Source: Chloroflexota bacterium | GTDB lineage: Bacteria; Chloroflexota; Dehalococcoidia; Dehalococcoidales; UBA2162 | Direction: 5' to 3' | Assembly (NCBI GenBank): GCA_016199495.1 | Contig: JACQGQ010000088.1 | Coordinates: forward strand, 1 to 36,729 | DNA: 36,729 nucleotides | In this document: piece by piece, positions 1,573 to 26,558 of the stretch | How the letters are laid out: each line of letters begins with the position of its first letter | Numbering within the stretch: the stretch's first letter is position 1 | Made by a program: the position numbers and the translations under genes | Notes under the pieces: generated by a model | Told to the model about the DNA's origin: nothing | Seen by the model: the letters and a program-made list of their open reading frames with translations, nothing else | Database searches by the model: none

Positions 1573-2133
1573 ATAAAAGCAAAAACACGGGCATTCTGCT
1601 TGGCAGTTGCCGCCCTGATTAGCGTTGTCTTCGTGAGTAGCTGCGCGCAACCAGCACCCCCGGCGCCGGCGCCGCTACCTGAAGAAGCAACAGTGGCGCC
1701 GGCCTGGATGGAGATAGAGCTTACCGATGTCGCTAGCGGCCAGAAATTCAGAATCAGCGACTTTAAAGGCAAGCCCATCTTGCTGGAAAGCTTTGCCGTC
1801 TGGTGCCCCACCTGCCTGGGGCAACAGAAGGAAATAAAGAAGCTGGCAGAAAATGAAGGCGAAGCCATCGTGCATATCTCACTGGATACTGACCCTAATG
1901 AGGACGCTGCCAGGATTAAAGAGCACATTGAAAGAAACGGCCTGGACTGGTACTTTGCCGTTTCACCCCGGGAGCTTACCAACGCCCTGATTGCTGAGTT
2001 TGGCTTGAGAGTGGTCAGCGCCCCTACCGCCCCGGTCGTCCTCATCTGTGCCGACCAATCCACCCGATTTCTGGGCAGGGGTATCAAGCTTGCTGATAAG
2101 CTGCTCTCGGAAATAGAGAAGGGTTGTGAGTAA
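1573..2133 (+). CDS. TlpA/thioredoxin-like redoxin lipoprotein
   Basis: FAVWCPTCLGQ active site; signal peptide with lipobox VSSC. The ORF track starts at an internal TTG (1600); the signal peptide extends to an ATA codon at 1573 just after AGGAGGTGA. Confidence 0.8.
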   Translation: MKAKTRAFCLAVAALISVVFVSSCAQPAPPAPAPLPEEATVAPAWMEIELTDVASGQKFRISDFKGKPILLESFAVWCPTCLGQQKEIKKLAENEGEAIVHISLDTDPNEDAARIKEHIERNGLDWYFAVSPRELTNALIAEFGLRVVSAPTAPVVLICADQSTRFLGRGIKLADKLLSEIEKGCE

Positions 2134-2852
2134 TGGTGCTATTGCTGGCCTTATGGGAAGCCTTCTTTCTGGGACTGGCAACCCCCCTGGGCGCCGTCTG
2201 CGTTTTACCGATTTACCCGGGCTTCCTCGTTTATCTCTCCACGCAGGTCAAGGGGTGGGAGGCAGGAAAGAAGACCATTTTCCTCTTTGGCAGCATCATT
2301 GTGACTGGCGTTATTCTATTTATGTTTTTACTGGGGCTGATATTCACCACCCTTTTCCAGGTCTCGCTTACTGGCATCGTCAATATCGTGTCCCCCATCG
2401 CCTTTACAATACTTTTTATTATCAGCCTCAGCCTCATCAGCACCAGCATTATCTCGTTTACTAGCGGGCGGTCTGTAGATATCTGGGGATTCCTACCCAA
2501 GGGTCATGCTCCGGTGATGAGTAATCCCTGGACGACGGCTTTCCTCTACGGCTTCTTCTTCGGCGCGATTGTGGCGCCCTGTAATCCGGGCTTTATCGCT
2601 ATTCTCTTTGCCCGGGCGGTAGCCACCGTAGATTTCGCCCAGAATGTACTGCGCTTCCTGCTTTTTGGTGTGGGGGTGGGGTTTCCTCTGCTGGTGCTGG
2701 CGGCTGTTTCCAGCGCCGCCACTAATGCCATCATCAATTTCCTCACCAGGTATGGCAAATGGGTCAACCTCATCGCTGGTTTGATTATGCTGGTGATTTC
2801 GCTCTACTATCTGATTCTTGTCTTCAGAGTGCACGAGAGATTATTGGGATAA
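2133..2852 (+). CDS. ccdA: CcdA/DsbD-type cytochrome c biogenesis transmembrane protein
   Basis: Six-helix hydrophobic protein with 'GAVCVLPIYPGFLVYLS' and 'GAIVAPCNPGFIAILFA' Cys motifs; overlaps the upstream stop (TAATG). Confidence 0.85.
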   Translation: MVLLLALWEAFFLGLATPLGAVCVLPIYPGFLVYLSTQVKGWEAGKKTIFLFGSIIVTGVILFMFLLGLIFTTLFQVSLTGIVNIVSPIAFTILFIISLSLISTSIISFTSGRSVDIWGFLPKGHAPVMSNPWTTAFLYGFFFGAIVAPCNPGFIAILFARAVATVDFAQNVLRFLLFGVGVGFPLLVLAAVSSAATNAIINFLTRYGKWVNLIAGLIMLVISLYYLILVFRVHERLLG

Positions 2853-2862
2853 GGAGGACGTA

Positions 2863-3882
2863 ATGAACAGGAAATTCCCTTGGCTTATCGTAAGTTTTGC
2901 TGTGGCGACATTCCTACTGACAGCCTGCCGGCCCAGCCCGGTTCCAAAAACTCCGGAAACTCCGGAGGCTCCAGGACCAGCGGCGGCACCAGCGCCGGCA
3001 GAGGAACACGAATATGAAATTAAAACGGACCCCTCGGGTGTCAAGTATATCGTGGAACGGAGCAAACTAGTCGGCGGTGGTCCCCCCAAGGATGGCATAC
3101 CATCAATAGACGAACCGAAATTTGTTTCCCTAGAGGAGGCCGACCAGTGGATAGCCGAAGATGAGCTGGTGCTAGCCATCGATTACAGGGGAGTGAAGAG
3201 AGTCTATCCGCTGCAAATACTGGTGTGGCATGAGATTGTCAACGAGGTTATCGCTGGGGACCCGCTATTGATAACCTACTGACCGCTCTGCGGCTCAGGC
3301 GTTGCCTTTGAGCGGGTGATAAACGGAGAAGCCGTGGAATTTGGTGTCTCCGGAAAACTATACAATTCAAACCTGGTTATGTATGATAGGAAAACCGATT
3401 CTTACTGGACTCAGCTTGATGGTTTAGCCATCATTGGTGAGATGGCGGGCACCAGGCTTAAGCCGGTAAATATTGACACCCTTGTCTGGCGAGACTGGAA
3501 GGCTGAGAATACGGATGCCGAAGTATTGAGCCAGGAAACCGGATTCTTTCGGCGCTATGGGGTAGACCCCTACGGCAGCTATTACGAAGATAGCCTCGTC
3601 TTCTTCCCGGTGGAAAGCAGGGACGACAGGGTGCACCCCAAGACAGTGGTCTTCGGTGTCGAATTAAACAAGAGCTACCAAGCCTATAAAGAGGACGACT
3701 TGAAGAAGCTAAGGGTAATCGAGGATACTGTCGGCGGCGTCAGTATCAGGCTGGAGAGAGACGATGCCGGCATCGTGACCGTCACCAACCTGGAGACAGG
3801 CGAGAAAATAGTCAAGGAAAGGGGCTTCTGGTTTGCCTGGTACGCTTTCCATCCGGATACCGGGTTGTATATACTTAAGTAA
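2863..3882 (+). CDS. DUF3179 domain lipoprotein, candidate selenoprotein with in-frame TGA (Sec) at codon 140 (3280-3282)
   Basis: ORFs 2818-3282 and 3316-3882 are in the same frame and separated only by TGA. Joined translation '...LLITY-U-PLCGSGVAFERVINGEAVEFGVSGKLYNSNLVMYDRKT' matches the DUF3179 core at the conserved TYCPLC position. Start ATG at 2863 after AAGGAGG; lipobox LTAC. Confidence 0.75.
3283..3315 (+). promoter_or_regulatory. Candidate bacterial SECIS element
   Basis: CCGCTC(3283-3288)/GAGCGG(3310-3315) 6-bp stem starting directly after the TGA, symmetric 3x3 internal loop (UGC/UUU), GGC(3292-3294)/GCC(3304-3306) inner stem, apical loop UCAGGCGUU with GG at +16/+17 from the UGA. 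Confidence 0.6.
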
Positions 3883-3916: not shown

Positions 3917-4207
3917 ATGGCTAAAGCAACCTGGAACGGAACAACACTCGCCGAAAGCGATAAATACGAGGTGGTGGAGGGCAATATTTACTTCCCTCCC
4001 GATTCAGTCAAATGGGAATATTTTGACAGGGGAGACAGGGAATACACCTGTCCCTGGAAGGGCGAAGCCTGCTATCATGACATTACGGTAGAAGGCAAGA
4101 CAAATGAGAATGCCGCCTGGTCTTACCCTGAGCCGAAGCCGGCGGCAAAGAACATTAAGGGACATATTGCTTTTGAGCTTGGCAAAGGCATAAAAGTAGA
4201 GAAGTGA
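3917..4207 (+). CDS. Single-domain DUF427 protein
   Basis: MAKATWNGTTLAESDKYEVVEGNIYFPPDSV...CPWKGEACYHDITVEGK...AAWSYPEP; strong RBS GAGGAGG. Confidence 0.9.
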   Translation: MAKATWNGTTLAESDKYEVVEGNIYFPPDSVKWEYFDRGDREYTCPWKGEACYHDITVEGKTNENAAWSYPEPKPAAKNIKGHIAFELGKGIKVEK

Positions 4208-4301: not shown

Positions 4302-5651
4302 TTGGTAAGCAAATACGATTTGGTGGTCATAGGCTCAGGAAGCGCCGCAAACGTAGCGGCGTCGCAGTGCCGGGCAGCCGGGTGGACAGTCGCAGTCATC
4401 GATTTCCGCCCTTTCGGGGGCACCTGCGCCTTGAGGGGCTGTGACCCCAAAAAGGTCCTTATCGGCGCGGCTGATGCCGTGGATCAGGCGCGCCGCCTAT
4501 TCGGAAAGGGCGTCATGGCAGACGGCCTCGGTATAAAGTGGACTGATTTGATGGCATTCAAGCGCACTTTCACTGATGACATGCCCGCCATGATGGAGAG
4601 CAGCTTCACCGGGCGAGGCATTGATACGTTTCACGGGATGGCGCGGTTCACCGGGCGGAACACGATTGAGGTGGGTGATAAAGTGCTTGAAGGACGGTAC
4701 ATCCTCATTGCTTCCGGCGCAGAGCCGATGACCCTTGGCATTGATGGCGAGGAGTATCTCAAGACAAGCGAGCAGTTCCTTGAACTCGATCACCTGCCGG
4801 GCCGGATCGTCCTCGTGGGTGGTGGATTCATCGCTTTCGAGTTCGGACACCTCACCAGGCGCGCCGGTGTCGAAGTCACCATGCTGGAGCAAGCGCCTTA
4901 TGTCCTCGGCCCGTTCGACCAGGACCTGGTCGCGATGTTGCTTAAAAAATCACGGGAGATTGGCATTGACGTCAGGACGGGGACTGCTGTAACTGCCGTT
5001 GAGAAGACAGGCGAGAGCTTCATCGTTCGTGCTTCGTCTCAAGGAGAAGAACACCGTTTCGAAGCGGACATAGTGGTCCATGCCGCCGGGCGTGTGCCCG
5101 CGATTAAAGCTCTCGATCTGGACGTCGCCGGAGTGCAGCACGAGGCTGGCCGGCTTAAGCTAAGTGAATTCCTGCAGAGCGTCTCTAACTCCGCGGTGTA
5201 TGCCGCCGGTGATGCCGCCCACATGGGGCCGGCGTTGACACCGGTGGCGGGCCGCGATGGAGAAATTGCCGCCACCAACATGCTCGAAGGTAACCATGTC
5301 AGGACAGATTATACAGTCGTTCCCAGCGTGGTATTCTCGCTGCCGCCGCTTGCCTCGGTGGGCTTACGTGAGGATGAGGCAAGGAAAAAAGGACTGAACT
5401 TCCGTACCACCCATGACGACACTTCCGGTTGGTACACCAATCACCGGGTCAACGAAAACACGGCTGGGTTCAAGATCCTGGTAGAAACGGGTTCCGAGAA
5501 GATCATCGGCGCCCATCTTCTCGGTCCGCATGCTGAGGAGGTTATTAACCTTTTCGCTCTCGCCATGCGAGCAGGGATTCCAGCAAACGACCTCAAGAGG
5601 ACGGTATACGCCTACCCAACGGCGACCTCGGATATTGCCTATATGTTGTGA
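4302..5651 (+). CDS. FAD/NAD(P)-dependent pyridine nucleotide-disulfide oxidoreductase (glutathione/mercuric reductase-like)
   Basis: VVIGSGSAANVAA, GGTCALRGCDPKKVL redox motif, C-terminal dimerisation domain. TTG start at 4302 placed after GGAGG. Confidence 0.85.
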   Translation: MVSKYDLVVIGSGSAANVAASQCRAAGWTVAVIDFRPFGGTCALRGCDPKKVLIGAADAVDQARRLFGKGVMADGLGIKWTDLMAFKRTFTDDMPAMMESSFTGRGIDTFHGMARFTGRNTIEVGDKVLEGRYILIASGAEPMTLGIDGEEYLKTSEQFLELDHLPGRIVLVGGGFIAFEFGHLTRRAGVEVTMLEQAPYVLGPFDQDLVAMLLKKSREIGIDVRTGTAVTAVEKTGESFIVRASSQGEEHRFEADIVVHAAGRVPAIKALDLDVAGVQHEAGRLKLSEFLQSVSNSAVYAAGDAAHMGPALTPVAGRDGEIAATNMLEGNHVRTDYTVVPSVVFSLPPLASVGLREDEARKKGLNFRTTHDDTSGWYTNHRVNENTAGFKILVETGSEKIIGAHLLGPHAEEVINLFALAMRAGIPANDLKRTVYAYPTATSDIAYML

Positions 5652-10677: not shown

Positions 10678-10736
10678 TTACCTGAATTTGAGTAAAAGAG
10701 TTATCTGACGGCAAATACGTTGCAAAGGAGTTGAGT

Positions 10737-13700
10737 ATGAACAGAGACGGATGGGTAAAAGGACTCTGTGGCATATGCCCGGCGGGCTGCTGGGTGGAAG
10801 TTCTTCTTGACAAAGGTAGACTGGTGGACATCAGGCCGGACGGTGAGCATACCCTGGGGATGCTCTGCCGCCGAGGCAAACACTCGCCGGAGATAGTCTA
10901 TTCCGAGCACAGGTTGAGACATCCGCTGAGGCGGGTTGGGGCTAAGGGTTCATATCAATTCGAAAGGATTACCTGGGATGAAGCTTATGGCATCATCACC
11001 GAAAAGTTCAACCAGCTCAAGAAAGAATCGGGGCCGGAGACGGTCGCCATTTATACCGGACGGGGCGCTCAGGAACAGTCATTATGTGATATGTTCCAGC
11101 CCAAGGGAGTAACGGTATCTTCCGCCTCCAATGTCTTGTTCCCATTTGGCTCGCCCAATACCACCGGCGTGGGGGCGCTGTGTTATGTTTCTCTTCAAAT
11201 GATTGCCCCGCACGTAACGATGGGACGGATGCAGACCAACATGTTTACCGATATTGAAAATGCCGGAACAATTTTTGTCTGGGGAACCAATCCGGCGACT
11301 GACTCACCACCGGCGGATATGCGACGCCTCGAAGCCGCCGCCCGCCGTGGCGCCGAGATAATCGTCATCGACCCCCGGCGGAACGAAGCCGCGATTCGCA
11401 CCAATGCCCGCTGGGTGCCGGTCAGGCCGGGTACTGACGGCGCTCTGGCTCTGAGCATGATTGAGGTAATGATAGACGAAGACCTCTATGACGAGGACTT
11501 TGCCGAAAACTGGTGCCACGGTTTTGAAGAACTTAAAACTTACACGCAACACTTCTCTCCGGAAGTTACCGAGACCATTACCGGCGTGCCGGCGGAAACG
11601 ATTCGAGAGCTGGCGCACCGCATCGCCAGCGCCGTAGGGGCTTCTCTGCTGATGTATACCGGGCTGGAGTACTCCAATAGCGGCGTGCAATCAGCCCGAG
11701 CGATACTGACCCTGTTTGCTCTGGCCGGTCAACTGGATGTTCCCGGCGGCATCGGGCTTGATATGCTGGGCAGCCATTTTCAGATAAATCACTCTTCTAA
11801 CCTGAAAAACCCGGACCTGGAGCTGGCTATCGGACGGAAAGAATTTCCCATATACACCGGCTATCGCGAAGAGTCTCACGCTATCGCCCTGGTGGATTCG
11901 GTTCTTCACGGTCAGCCATATCCGGTGCGCAGTCTGCTTATTCACGGCAGTTCCATGCTCACTTCCTGGCCGCAAACATCAATCTGGCGCGAGACGCTTG
12001 CACGGCTGGATTTTCTGGTCTGCATTGACCGGCAGATGACCGCGGATGCTGCCTACGCTGACATCATGCTGCCGGCGACGACCATGTTCGAGAATTATTC
12101 TTACATGGTTTATGGGCCTATTTTCCGCTTGCGGGAGAGAATAATCGAGCCGGTGGGCGAAGCCCGCAACGATTACCTTATCATGGCTGAGCTTGCCAGG
12201 CACCTCGGCTATGGTCACCTGTTTCCCCAGACTGAAGAGGCGATGATTCGACTGGCTCTTGATGGTTCCGGCTACGCGCTTGGGGAAGTGAAGGCCGCCG
12301 GAGGCTGGGTCAGAATCCCGACAGCGATGATGGAATACAAGAAATGGCAAAAGGGCAGCCTGCGCCCGGATGGAAAACCGGGCTTTGACACCCCCAGCGG
12401 TAAGTTTGAGATATGGTCGACAACCTTCGAGGAATACGGCTACGAACCGCTACCCAAGTATATTGAGCCCACGGAGGGTCCACTGGGTGCTCCCAGAATG
12501 ACAGAAAAATTCCCGCTGGTATTCAACTCAGGCGCCCGACCTCAGACCGACTTCAGGTCACAGCACCATGGCATCGCCGGACTGGTGAAGGACAACCCGG
12601 AGCCGACCGTAGACATCAACATCCAGGATGCGGAGGAGAGAGGCATCGTCAGCGGTGACCTGGTACGGGTTAGCTCACCTAGAGGCAGCGTATCCTTCAG
12701 AGCCCGCGTCACGGCTGACATCATGAAGGGGGCGGTTGAATGTATGTTCGGCGGCGGCACCCCCGTTGGCCCCAAAGAGTGGCAGGAACGAAATGTTAAT
12801 GAGCTTACCGACCTTCATAACTACGATAGAATTTCCGGCTTCCCGGTCTACAAAGCTCTTCTCTGTGAAGTGGCAAAGGTGGCGGCTGGCACTGAGGAGA
12901 GGCGCGGCATTGTTGCCCAAGCGCCGGATTTTGGGTTCGAAACGACAACTGCGCTGAGCGGAGCCACAAGATCAGAACGTTTGATTTACCTCGATAATAA
13001 CGCCACCACCGAGGTAGCCGAGGCTGTGCGTGAGGCAATGATGCCCTATCTGGGTAGCGCTCATGGCAACCCGTCCAGCATTTATGAAGTAGGGCGAGAC
13101 GCCCGCGAAGCCGTTGAAACCGCCCGGCGGCAGGTGGCGAAACTAATTAACTCGTCTCCCCGCAGAATTATCTTCAGCGGCGGTGGTTCGGAAGCCGACA
13201 ACCTGGCATTGAAAGGCACAGCCTTTGCCAGACGCGGCAAGGGCAATCACATCATTACTACCACCATCGAGCATCCGGCTATTCTGAGCACCTGCCACTT
13301 CCTGGAAAAGATGGGTTATCAGGTGACTTACCTTAACGTTGACGAAAACGGCTGGCTGGCTCCGTCAGAACTTAAGGAAGCCATCAGGGATGACACTATT
13401 TTAGTCTCCATTATGATGGCTAATAACGAGGTGGGCACCATTCTGCCCATCAGAGAACTGGCTGCCATGGCTCACCAGAGAGGAATACTGTTTCATACTG
13501 ACGCTGTCCAGGCAGTGGGCAAGATAAGGGTAGATGTCGAGGAACTGGGAGTGGACATGCTCAGTCTGTCGGCACACAAGTTCCACGGGCCGAAGGGTAT
13601 CGGCGCTTTGTACATCAAGAAGGGGCTTGAGCTTGAACCGCTGGTGCACGGCGGCAAGCAGGAAAACGGACTGCGCGCCGGCACAGAAAATGTCCCGGCT

Positions 13701-14132
13701 ATTGTCGGTCTGGGCAAAGCGGCCGAACTAGCCAGCTACACTCTCCGTGACTCCGAACGGATGCTAGAGCTGAGAGATAGTCTTGAGCGAGGCATAAAAA
13801 GCCTCATCCCGGGGGCTATCTTGAACGGTCACCCGGAGGAGAGACTGTGGAATACACTCAATATGACTTTACCCGCTCTGCGCGGAGAATCGGTGGTCAT
13901 TGCTATGGACCAGCACGGAATTTCGCTTTCTTCGGGGTCGGCATGTAAGTCAGGCTCGCCGGAGCCGACGCATGTGCTCATGGCTATGGGACGGACGGAA
14001 GAGGCAGCCCATTGCTCGGTGCGTTTCTCGCTATCCCGTAACACTACCCAAGAAGAAATCAATGAGACCATCTCGGCTCTGGCTCAGGTACTGGAAGAAA
14101 AGAACACCGTCCGGCTTATGCCCTGCAAATAG
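10737..14132 (+). CDS. Molybdopterin/tungstopterin oxidoreductase fused to a NifS/IscS-type cysteine desulfurase; candidate metallopterin-dependent ergothioneine synthase
   Basis: N-terminal [4Fe-4S] CGICPAGC...CRRGKHSPE and Mo-bis-PGD domains, putative metal-ligand Cys in GALCYVS; C-terminal domain from about 12981 with LIYLDNNATTEVAEAV, PLP-Lys SAHKFHGPKGIGA and catalytic Cys SSGSACKSGSPEPTHVL. Adjacent to an egtD-like gene. Confidence 0.8.
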   Translation: MNRDGWVKGLCGICPAGCWVEVLLDKGRLVDIRPDGEHTLGMLCRRGKHSPEIVYSEHRLRHPLRRVGAKGSYQFERITWDEAYGIITEKFNQLKKESGPETVAIYTGRGAQEQSLCDMFQPKGVTVSSASNVLFPFGSPNTTGVGALCYVSLQMIAPHVTMGRMQTNMFTDIENAGTIFVWGTNPATDSPPADMRRLEAAARRGAEIIVIDPRRNEAAIRTNARWVPVRPGTDGALALSMIEVMIDEDLYDEDFAENWCHGFEELKTYTQHFSPEVTETITGVPAETIRELAHRIASAVGASLLMYTGLEYSNSGVQSARAILTLFALAGQLDVPGGIGLDMLGSHFQINHSSNLKNPDLELAIGRKEFPIYTGYREESHAIALVDSVLHGQPYPVRSLLIHGSSMLTSWPQTSIWRETLARLDFLVCIDRQMTADAAYADIMLPATTMFENYSYMVYGPIFRLRERIIEPVGEARNDYLIMAELARHLGYGHLFPQTEEAMIRLALDGSGYALGEVKAAGGWVRIPTAMMEYKKWQKGSLRPDGKPGFDTPSGKFEIWSTTFEEYGYEPLPKYIEPTEGPLGAPRMTEKFPLVFNSGARPQTDFRSQHHGIAGLVKDNPEPTVDINIQDAEERGIVSGDLVRVSSPRGSVSFRARVTADIMKGAVECMFGGGTPVGPKEWQERNVNELTDLHNYDRISGFPVYKALLCEVAKVAAGTEERRGIVAQAPDFGFETTTALSGATRSERLIYLDNNATTEVAEAVREAMMPYLGSAHGNPSSIYEVGRDAREAVETARRQVAKLINSSPRRIIFSGGGSEADNLALKGTAFARRGKGNHIITTTIEHPAILSTCHFLEKMGYQVTYLNVDENGWLAPSELKEAIRDDTILVSIMMANNEVGTILPIRELAAMAHQRGILFHTDAVQAVGKIRVDVEELGVDMLSLSAHKFHGPKGIGALYIKKGLELEPLVHGGKQENGLRAGTENVPAIVGLGKAAELASYTLRDSERMLELRDSLERGIKSLIPGAILNGHPEERLWNTLNMTLPALRGESVVIAMDQHGISLSSGSACKSGSPEPTHVLMAMGRTEEAAHCSVRFSLSRNTTQEEINETISALAQVLEEKNTVRLMPCK

Positions 14133-14170: not shown

Positions 14171-15157
14171 ATGAGACCTCAGAAGATTATCAGGACGATG
14201 GTAAAAGATGCTTCGCCAGGTTTAGAACGCTTCCGTGCCGAGGTGATGCATGGTCTGCGGAAACCGCAAAAGGAACTGCCTTCTAAGTATTTCTACGATG
14301 ATAGGGGTTCTTATCTGTTCGAGCTTATCTGCACTCTCGATGAATACTACATCCCCCGCACGGAAACGGCAATAATGGCCGACTGCATCGAAGAGATAAC
14401 GGAGCTTATCGGACCAGGCGCTTTCCTCCTCGAATACGGTAGTGGCAGTTGCCAGAAAGTAAGACTTCTCCTGGATAATCTGGATAACCCGACGGCTTAT
14501 ACGCCAATAGATATCTCAGGGCAACAGTTGTTACAGGTTTCCCAAGAGTTAAGCGCCGACTATCCCCAACTGGAAGTGCTGCCTGTCTGCACTGATTACA
14601 CCGGTAATTTTGAGTTACCGGTTCCGGGAGGATACTGCGCCCGCACCGTGGTTTATTTCCCGGGTTCAACAATCAGTAACTTCGACCCTGTGCCAGCCAT
14701 ACAATTCCTGGAACATGTTGCCGGGGTGTGCGGGGAGGGCGGCGGCCTACTCATTGGCGTCGATTTGAAGAAGGACCCGGCTATCCTGCACCGGGCTTAT
14801 AATGATAGTAAGGGTGTCACCGCCGCCTTCAATCTTAATCTACTGGAACGGATAAACCGTGAGCTCGGCGCTGATTTTGAGCTTGATGCCTTTGAACACT
14901 ACGCCTTTTATAATCCTGGAGAAAGCCGGATTGAGATGCACCTGGTAAGCCTGAGAGAGCAGGAGGTACATCTGGGTGAAACTACCATACCATTCCATAT
15001 GGGTGAGAGCATCTGGACGGAAAGCTCTTATAAGTTCAGCCTCGATGATTTCGAGCAGATGGCGGCTAGGGCCGGTTTCAGGGTAAAGCAGGTCTGGACT
15101 GACCCTCAAAACTGGTTCAGTGTTCACTACCTGGAAAATTCTCTACTTGAAAGGTAG
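14171..15157 (+). CDS. egtD: L-histidine N-alpha-methyltransferase (EgtD-like, SAM-dependent)
   Basis: LPSKYFYDDRGSYLFELICTLDEYYIPRTETAIM, EYGSGSCQKVRLLLD, FPGSTISNF, and GESIWTESSYKFSLDDFEQMAARAGF. Confidence 0.9.
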   Translation: MRPQKIIRTMVKDASPGLERFRAEVMHGLRKPQKELPSKYFYDDRGSYLFELICTLDEYYIPRTETAIMADCIEEITELIGPGAFLLEYGSGSCQKVRLLLDNLDNPTAYTPIDISGQQLLQVSQELSADYPQLEVLPVCTDYTGNFELPVPGGYCARTVVYFPGSTISNFDPVPAIQFLEHVAGVCGEGGGLLIGVDLKKDPAILHRAYNDSKGVTAAFNLNLLERINRELGADFELDAFEHYAFYNPGESRIEMHLVSLREQEVHLGETTIPFHMGESIWTESSYKFSLDDFEQMAARAGFRVKQVWTDPQNWFSVHYLENSLLER

Positions 15158-25698: not shown

Positions 25699-26280
25699 CT
25701 ACCTGGTGGCCGGCTGTATCCTGGTGAAGAGTTGTCTCAATTCCTTGACGGTCTCCTGGCGCCAACTGTCAGCCAATAGCTGACTGCGCTGGCGCCTCTC
25801 CTGGCGCAGTTCCTCTTCGCTCAGTTTTTTCTTGGCTAGCTCGGCGGCCAGCTCCTCCGTAAACCGAGTAGCCACCTTGGGGCGCTCAATCCAGTGACAC
25901 AGCGGATTGAGATTCTCATCAAAGAAGGCAAACACCGGGATAGACATAAACTTACCCTGATTTAGATAGAGGTTCATAATGTCGAGGTTCTTGTCTCGTG
26001 GAAAAACTCGCATATCCATGCCGCTCGCTTGAGCAATCGCCGCCATGACCGGCAGCCCCCGGTGGACGTCCGGACACCAGTCCTCAACGATGGCTACCAG
26101 CTTAACATGACCGAGACGCCGCACTGTATCTTTGAAAAACCGGGCATCGGTTGAGGCCAGTCGGAAGGCCGCCTCATGTTCGGCAAACCGCCGCCGTGTA
26201 TCACCTAGTTGGTTAAGGTAAGCTTCGCAGGTAAATCCCTGGGAGTAACGCTGCGCCGTAATCACAGTCGCTGTTGACAT
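25699..26280 (-). CDS. Thioredoxin-family protein
   Basis: VAIVEDWCPDVHRGLPVMAAIAQASGMDMRVFPRDKNLDIM; thioredoxin-like fold signature. Confidence 0.8.
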   Translation of the reverse strand: MSTATVITAQRYSQGFTCEAYLNQLGDTRRRFAEHEAAFRLASTDARFFKDTVRRLGHVKLVAIVEDWCPDVHRGLPVMAAIAQASGMDMRVFPRDKNLDIMNLYLNQGKFMSIPVFAFFDENLNPLCHWIERPKVATRFTEELAAELAKKKLSEEELRQERRQRSQLLADSWRQETVKELRQLFTRIQPATR

Positions 26281-26292
26281 GACCCACCTCCT

Positions 26293-26547
26293 TCATGACT
26301 TTTTGGCTACTATGAGGTTGCAAAAACAAGACCCCATCACGTCCACCAAGCCGTTGCGTACTGGCTTGCAGACACAGACCGTATCCGGGTGTCGCCGTTC
26401 GCGGCAGGGGCAATAGTAGTCGCCGACCGTCTCCTTCATGCGCACAATATCACGCAGGATTTTTTCCGCCTCCGGTGCCAGAGAATAGTCCCGCTCATCA
26501 CAGAAGGCAACAACCCGGTTACGGAGATTTTCCAGGTCACTATCCAT
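26293..26547 (-). CDS. Ferredoxin-thioredoxin reductase catalytic-subunit-like protein
   Basis: YYCPCRERRHPDTVCVCKPVRNGLVDVMGSCFC: spaced CPC/CxC/CxC Cys pattern of FTR beta subunits. Confidence 0.75.
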   Translation of the reverse strand: MDSDLENLRNRVVAFCDERDYSLAPEAEKILRDIVRMKETVGDYYCPCRERRHPDTVCVCKPVRNGLVDVMGSCFCNLIVAKKS

Positions 26548-26558
26548 GTTTACCTTGA

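Follow-up and report, generated by a model that had tools for sequence, protein, structure and literature searches.

A DUF3179 lipoprotein gene of a Chloroflexota bacterium is almost certainly a selenoprotein gene, with selenocysteine (Sec) inserted at residue 140 through an in-frame TGA. The gene lies next to TlpA-like and CcdA-like genes in the window, by which we mean the whole stretch of DNA analysed (36,729 nucleotides). Comparison with homologues makes it highly probable that Sec in this protein has an origin separate from that in other Chloroflexota clades.

Results

Gene structure

The gene begins with an ATG at 2863, preceded by a ribosome-binding-like AAGGAGG at 2851-2857, and ends with a TAA at 3880-3882. 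Its 340 codons include a single in-frame TGA and zero frameshifts, and the coordinates and frame given in an earlier note, which had described one gene with the TGA as its sole interruption, proved correct (Table 1). That note had also seen DUF3179 similarity running unbroken over the TGA. The Pfam model PF11376 (DUF3179) indeed matches residues 76 to 307, spanning residue 140, with E=2.3e-95 and a score of 319.8 bits against a gathering cut-off of 27, which places the protein in this family. The match covers profile positions 1-232 of 292, the second repeat being shortened. No NCBIfam model matched the protein, and an Rfam scan of the window gave no matches. At the N-terminus a lipobox-like LTAC with Cys22 was recognized by eye. 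The half downstream of the TGA is preserved, as had been claimed, being free of frameshifts and under purifying selection (NG86 dN 0.19-0.30, with dS saturated at about 3, against two Sec relatives).

A scan of the window listed TGA codons that connect frames with a minimum length of 80 aa each, and family searches covered two of the pairs, those with the TGA at 3280-3282 and at 26293. Among the pairs searched, the TGA at 3280-3282 was the only one with one protein family found across it. On the minus strand a ferredoxin:thioredoxin reductase-like gene is followed by an in-frame thioredoxin gene (25699-26550), and the TGA at 26293 looks like an ordinary stop between the two.

Table 1. Features of the DUF3179 region; positions refer to the window.
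Feature	Position	Strand	Details
TlpA/ResA-like thioredoxin lipoprotein	1600..2133	+	DUF3179 operon
CcdA-like membrane protein	2133..2852	+	DUF3179 operon; name given on visual inspection and because it follows TlpA
Predicted DUF3179 selenoprotein gene	2863..3882	+	339 residues, Sec = residue 140; Pfam, lipobox by eye
His123	3229..3231	+	invariant (68/68 in alignment), 17 residues ahead of Sec140
In-frame TGA, read as selenocysteine	3280..3282	+	first position of (U)PLC; homologue alignment
Cys143, partner Cys of UxxC	3289..3291	+	65/68 Cys, 3/68 Thr in alignment
SECIS-like hairpin GCTCAGGC-GTT-GCC(TT)TGAGC	3293..3313	+	-9.6 kcal/mol; loop GTT 3301-3303, 18 nt after TGA
DUF427 (PF04248) gene	3917..4207	+	directly downstream of DUF3179

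The Sec column among homologues

In every TGA-bearing homologue inspected (the window and 36 other loci, from many families) the TGA stands in the same alignment column. A phylum scan covered 400 genomes, 81 of which contain DUF3179; the TGA loci inspected from it carry the motifs UPLC, UTLC, UPIC, UPAC, UPVC or UVVC, all in the window's column, and a class scan added 16 further loci with the TGA again at this place. In the structure alignment the column holds Cys in 67/67 Cys-type relatives (68/68 with the window read as Cys). The in-frame UGA is thus aligned with a Cys conserved in homologues, as expected of a bacterial selenoprotein. Given the invariant Cys on the one hand and the shared column of all inspected TGA codons on the other, the TGA is not there by chance. 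The earlier note had proposed just this alignment, together with a check of relatives for unrelated stops. Such stops are rare: among the matches listed from the two large scans, interrupted genes almost always had TGA as the stop, the exceptions being two TAG codons, both in genes with Cys at the Sec column.

Several homologues are unusual in their own right. An Anaerolineae contig (L140) carries two neighbouring DUF3179 genes in opposite orientation, one Cys-type and one Sec-type, at 4967 (+) and 3973 (-), and the second of them likewise has its TGA in the window's column. Two or three distinct Sec-DUF3179 genes per genome occur in the Chloroflexota genomes G342, G384, G125, G474 and G349 (L049-L060, L067), mostly with a strongly covarying SECIS. 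L082, a divergent homologue outside the structure alignment, carries Asp where the others have the conserved Cys (YDPIAGS) and probably serves a different function.

Selenocysteine machinery

The window's genome (1.38 Mb in 91 contigs, 80.8% complete, 0.18% contamination) contains all four genes that the earlier note, finding none of them in the window, had suggested looking for. They lie on other contigs. A tRNA-Sec was detected with 72.4 bits and called tRNA-SeC, anticodon tca, by ARAGORN. SelA (552 bits) and SelB (346 bits) adjoin each other on contig C75, with SelD nearby (G000:C75:3832-4755, L165). The selD gene itself has one in-frame TGA, in AGUASKLGPG, the known Sec site of SelD; this SelD is a selenoprotein candidate in its own right and offers an internal control for UGA recoding. 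With tRNA-Sec, SelA and SelB present and the SelD TGA at that site, the organism very likely does recode UGA. Across the TGA-bearing genomes selA was above the cut-off in 28 of 29, the exception being a genome of 69% completeness. The presence of selA was tried as a discriminator of Sec and Cys genomes and dropped: 70/80 DUF3179 genomes are positive, many without a TGA. Because Cys-only genomes commonly have selA, its occurrence in the TGA genomes is consistent with recoding, not discriminating.

These data bear on two ways in which the TGA might not encode Sec. A nonsense mutation, or a sequencing or assembly error, in a Cys-type gene would need a single TGC/TGT-to-TGA change, and the assembly is a draft of 91 contigs. 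Yet a pseudogene or error of this kind would be very hard to reconcile with a TGA in the identical column at 36 other loci, with TGA as nearly the only interrupting codon among the listed matches, with an intact and selected downstream half and with a complete Sec machinery, and we consider it highly improbable. Still less credible is a reassignment of UGA in the organism, for instance to Trp or Gly. A TGA in frame within an otherwise intact gene is what a changed code would also produce; however, the genome encodes SelA, SelB and a tRNA-Sec with anticodon tca, every Cys-type relative in the alignment has Cys at this column, and among the family-searched pairs no other window gene has a family across a TGA. 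Mutation, error and code change are rejected alike on the position-specific TGA relatives and the machinery. The earlier note's central claim, that this DUF3179 lipoprotein has Sec instead of the first Cys of CPLC, is strongly supported by the machinery of the genome, the same-column relatives, the SECIS and the purifying selection.

A SECIS-like hairpin downstream of the TGA

As RNA the hairpin reads GCUCAGGC-GUU-GCC(UU)UGAGC, with 8 bp and a 2-nt bulge. It is kept in the three Sec species of this lineage (the window, L091/L181 and L180), at -9.6 kcal/mol in each; in six Cys orthologues the corresponding region reaches -1.3 to -6.6 kcal/mol. A stretch of five codons shows no difference among the three Sec species (p=0.014 for enrichment of codon identity), and synonymous redraws gave z = -2.2 for the hairpin of the window clade. 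The codon in the loop specifies Ile in 7/7 Cys orthologues shown and Val (GTT) in the Sec species of the lineage, so that the change from Ile to Val supplies the G-U of the loop. The evidence for a SECIS in this clade is suggestive, resting on three sequences and a modest p=0.014. The minimum fold of the whole region additionally pairs an outer stem, CCGCUC/GAGCGG, which is missing in L091.

The other Chloroflexota Sec clades share a 7-bp hairpin at a fixed distance, with 20 nt separating the UGA from the loop (17 distinct sequences). In this hairpin 96.6% of the cells are paired, with both-side (compensatory) changes at 6/7 pairs; the same columns in Cys homologues have 43% paired cells. Covariation over the 17 sequences was 0.58 against 0.14 in shuffled alignments, and 0/500 shuffles reached 0.58.

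The constraints published for bacterial SECIS elements (PMC13188914) are a loop of 3-9 nt with a G in the first two places, an upper stem of 4-16 bp, a distance of 16-37 nt from the UGA and an MFE of -7.5 or lower. The window hairpin lies within them (loop GTT, 8 bp, 18 nt, -9.6 kcal/mol). Applied loosely, they are passed by 86/122 Cys genes too, and are therefore not discriminating by themselves; a constraint scan was discarded as proof for being too permissive.

Evolution and distribution

The relatives most similar to the window protein, at 58-68% identity, comprise Cys-type proteins of Bipolaricaulota, Woesearchaeota, Spirochaetota and Actinomycetota, together with two Sec forms, one from Chloroflexi co234_bin78 (L091, on the same contig as G513 of the class scan and as L181) and one from G505. 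In the tree the window, L091 and L180 are grouped within a Cys clade (support for the trio 87, unstarred), and a topology uniting all Sec rows in one clade was rejected (p-AU 1.5e-49). The simplest reading is a Cys-to-Sec gain in the window's subfamily, independent of the other Sec-DUF3179 clades of Chloroflexota; in counts of Cys/Sec changes on the tree, gain and loss are indistinguishable. In a set of 100 relatives, mostly of the same order, no copy of the gene came to light beyond that of the window; the other matches were a long Cys form, in G002, and a weak, broken one. Because of this distribution the gene was probably acquired horizontally.

Operon and predicted function

The TlpA-like and CcdA-like genes also adjoin DUF3179 in L085, L086, L087, L089, L090, L091, L180 and L181, and the neighbourhood spans Bipolaricaulota, Woesearchaeota, Spirochaetota, Actinomycetota and Chloroflexota. 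Pfam gave no match for the CcdA-like protein of the window. L101 combines a thioredoxin-like domain and DUF3179 in one protein, and so, by phmmer match and sequence, do L093 and L094. Neighbourhood and fusions together point to a redox partner for DUF3179. The DUF427 gene following DUF3179 is probably co-transcribed with it, and a DUF427 homologue follows DUF3179 in L086 too; a functional link between DUF427 and the operon is possible. A second DUF427 (PF04248) gene lies at 744-1514, and the pair flanks the TlpA-CcdA-DUF3179 operon.

Our working model is as follows. The UGA would be decoded as Sec by SelB and tRNA-Sec under the direction of the hairpin immediately downstream, giving a U-P-L-C motif where most relatives have C-P-L-C. 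The protein would be anchored in the membrane, presumably on its extracytoplasmic side, and would act there as a selenol/thiol oxidoreductase. The TlpA-like thioredoxin encoded in the same operon could recycle a selenenyl-sulfide between Sec140 and Cys143, and may itself be supplied by the CcdA-like protein with electrons that cross the membrane. The subfamily would derive from a Cys-type gene found in other phyla too, with Sec and a SECIS of its own gained within Chloroflexota. For the function proposed here, that of a selenol oxidoreductase lipoprotein supplied with electrons by CcdA/TlpA, we see about an even chance from the genomic context; the absence of the second Cys of UxxC in 3/68 relatives counts against a redox role.

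Elsewhere in the window, a 1133-aa ORF at 10731-14132 (+) fuses a molybdopterin oxidoreductase (PF00384, PF01568) to PF00266, a cysteine desulfurase-like class V aminotransferase. The fusion is unusual and possibly serves sulfur/selenium trafficking. It is followed by an EgtD-type histidine methyltransferase (PF10017, 7e-110) at 14171-15157.

Predicted fold

AlphaFold predicts a two-repeat protein (pLDDT 92), the second repeat lacking a CxxC as judged by eye. A fold search with the whole protein gave no significant match in the PDB, and a PDB sequence search gave no DUF3179 relative. The first domain (residues 78-206, pLDDT 96) likely has a Rieske-like fold: its 18 best PDB matches in Foldseek are all Rieske-fold, with probability up to 1.00 and E of at least 0.07, TM to target of up to 0.58 and an rmsd of 2.8. 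By eye, the spacing His123-x16-Sec140-x2-Cys143 equals the Rieske H-x16-C-x2-H, and in the predicted fold Sec lies close to the expected place of a Rieske cluster ligand. The window protein has VWH...UPLC in place of the Rieske cluster ligands CxH...CxxH and is for this reason not filed as Rieske.

The fold raises the alternative that the protein, although a selenoprotein, holds in its first domain a Rieske-type metal or cluster site with Sec140, Cys143 and His123 as ligands and no dithiol redox centre. The fold matches, the invariant His123 and the Rieske-like spacing would fit such a site. Against it stand the Foldseek E-values, a profile-profile comparison (hhalign) with Rieske sequences that gave no match, and the ligands themselves, the first Cys being absent and the last His replaced by Cys. 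Moreover, three relatives have CPLT, and the best matches (3c0d) are of the NirD type, a group not known to carry the Rieske cluster. With an incomplete ligand set and CPLT relatives, the metal site is a minority view and in our judgement unlikely. Somewhat less doubtful, but still tentative, is a broader proposal in which DUF3179 is a Rieske-fold family whose classical ligand set has been lost; Sec would, in this lineage, occupy the position of a Rieske cluster Cys, either as a selenolate-ligated metal site or in a selenol oxidoreductase fed by CcdA/TlpA.

Discussion

The earlier note had considered DUF3179 a possibly new selenoprotein family, and in this it was mistaken. Two reviews list DUF3179 as a UxxC/T selenoprotein family (PMC9312934, PMC13188914), the second of them with credit to Zhang and Gladyshev 2007, and 'DUF3179 domain-containing (seleno)protein' is already a product name at NCBI. 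The window gene is therefore a well-supported addition to the recognized DUF3179 selenoproteins and no new family. What seems to be new is the detail: the separate gain of Sec, the TlpA-CcdA-DUF3179 operon, the TlpA-DUF3179 fusions and the predicted Rieske-like fold. The open-licence literature searched held no report of the separate origin, the operon or the fold lead.

A little-studied selenoprotein family thereby receives a firmly supported member and a separate Cys-to-Sec conversion in Chloroflexota, and the operon and fusions make its function testable. The pairs of Sec and Cys orthologues (60-70% identity) are well suited for studying how a SECIS originates inside a coding sequence. Genes of this type are also likely to be split or truncated by gene callers.

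Compared with known systems, the window protein shares its Pfam family (PF11376) and the Sec in first position of UxxC with the known DUF3179 selenoproteins; it differs from them in belonging to a short-C-terminus, otherwise Cys-type subfamily with a TlpA-CcdA operon. In most other Chloroflexota Sec-DUF3179 clades the SECIS loop follows the UGA after 20 nt, in the window after 18 nt. With Rieske-fold proteins (NirD, Rieske ferredoxins, PF00355) the first domain likely has its predicted fold in common, whereas profile similarity to DUF3179 and the complete CxH...CxxH are absent. The Cys-type orthologues of Bipolaricaulota (L085), Woesearchaeota (L086, L088, L089), Spirochaetota (L087, L092) and Actinomycetota (L090) have 62-67% identity to the window protein. 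Most of them have the same TlpA-CcdA-DUF3179 neighbourhood, but they carry TGC/TGT at the Sec column and only a weak hairpin region.
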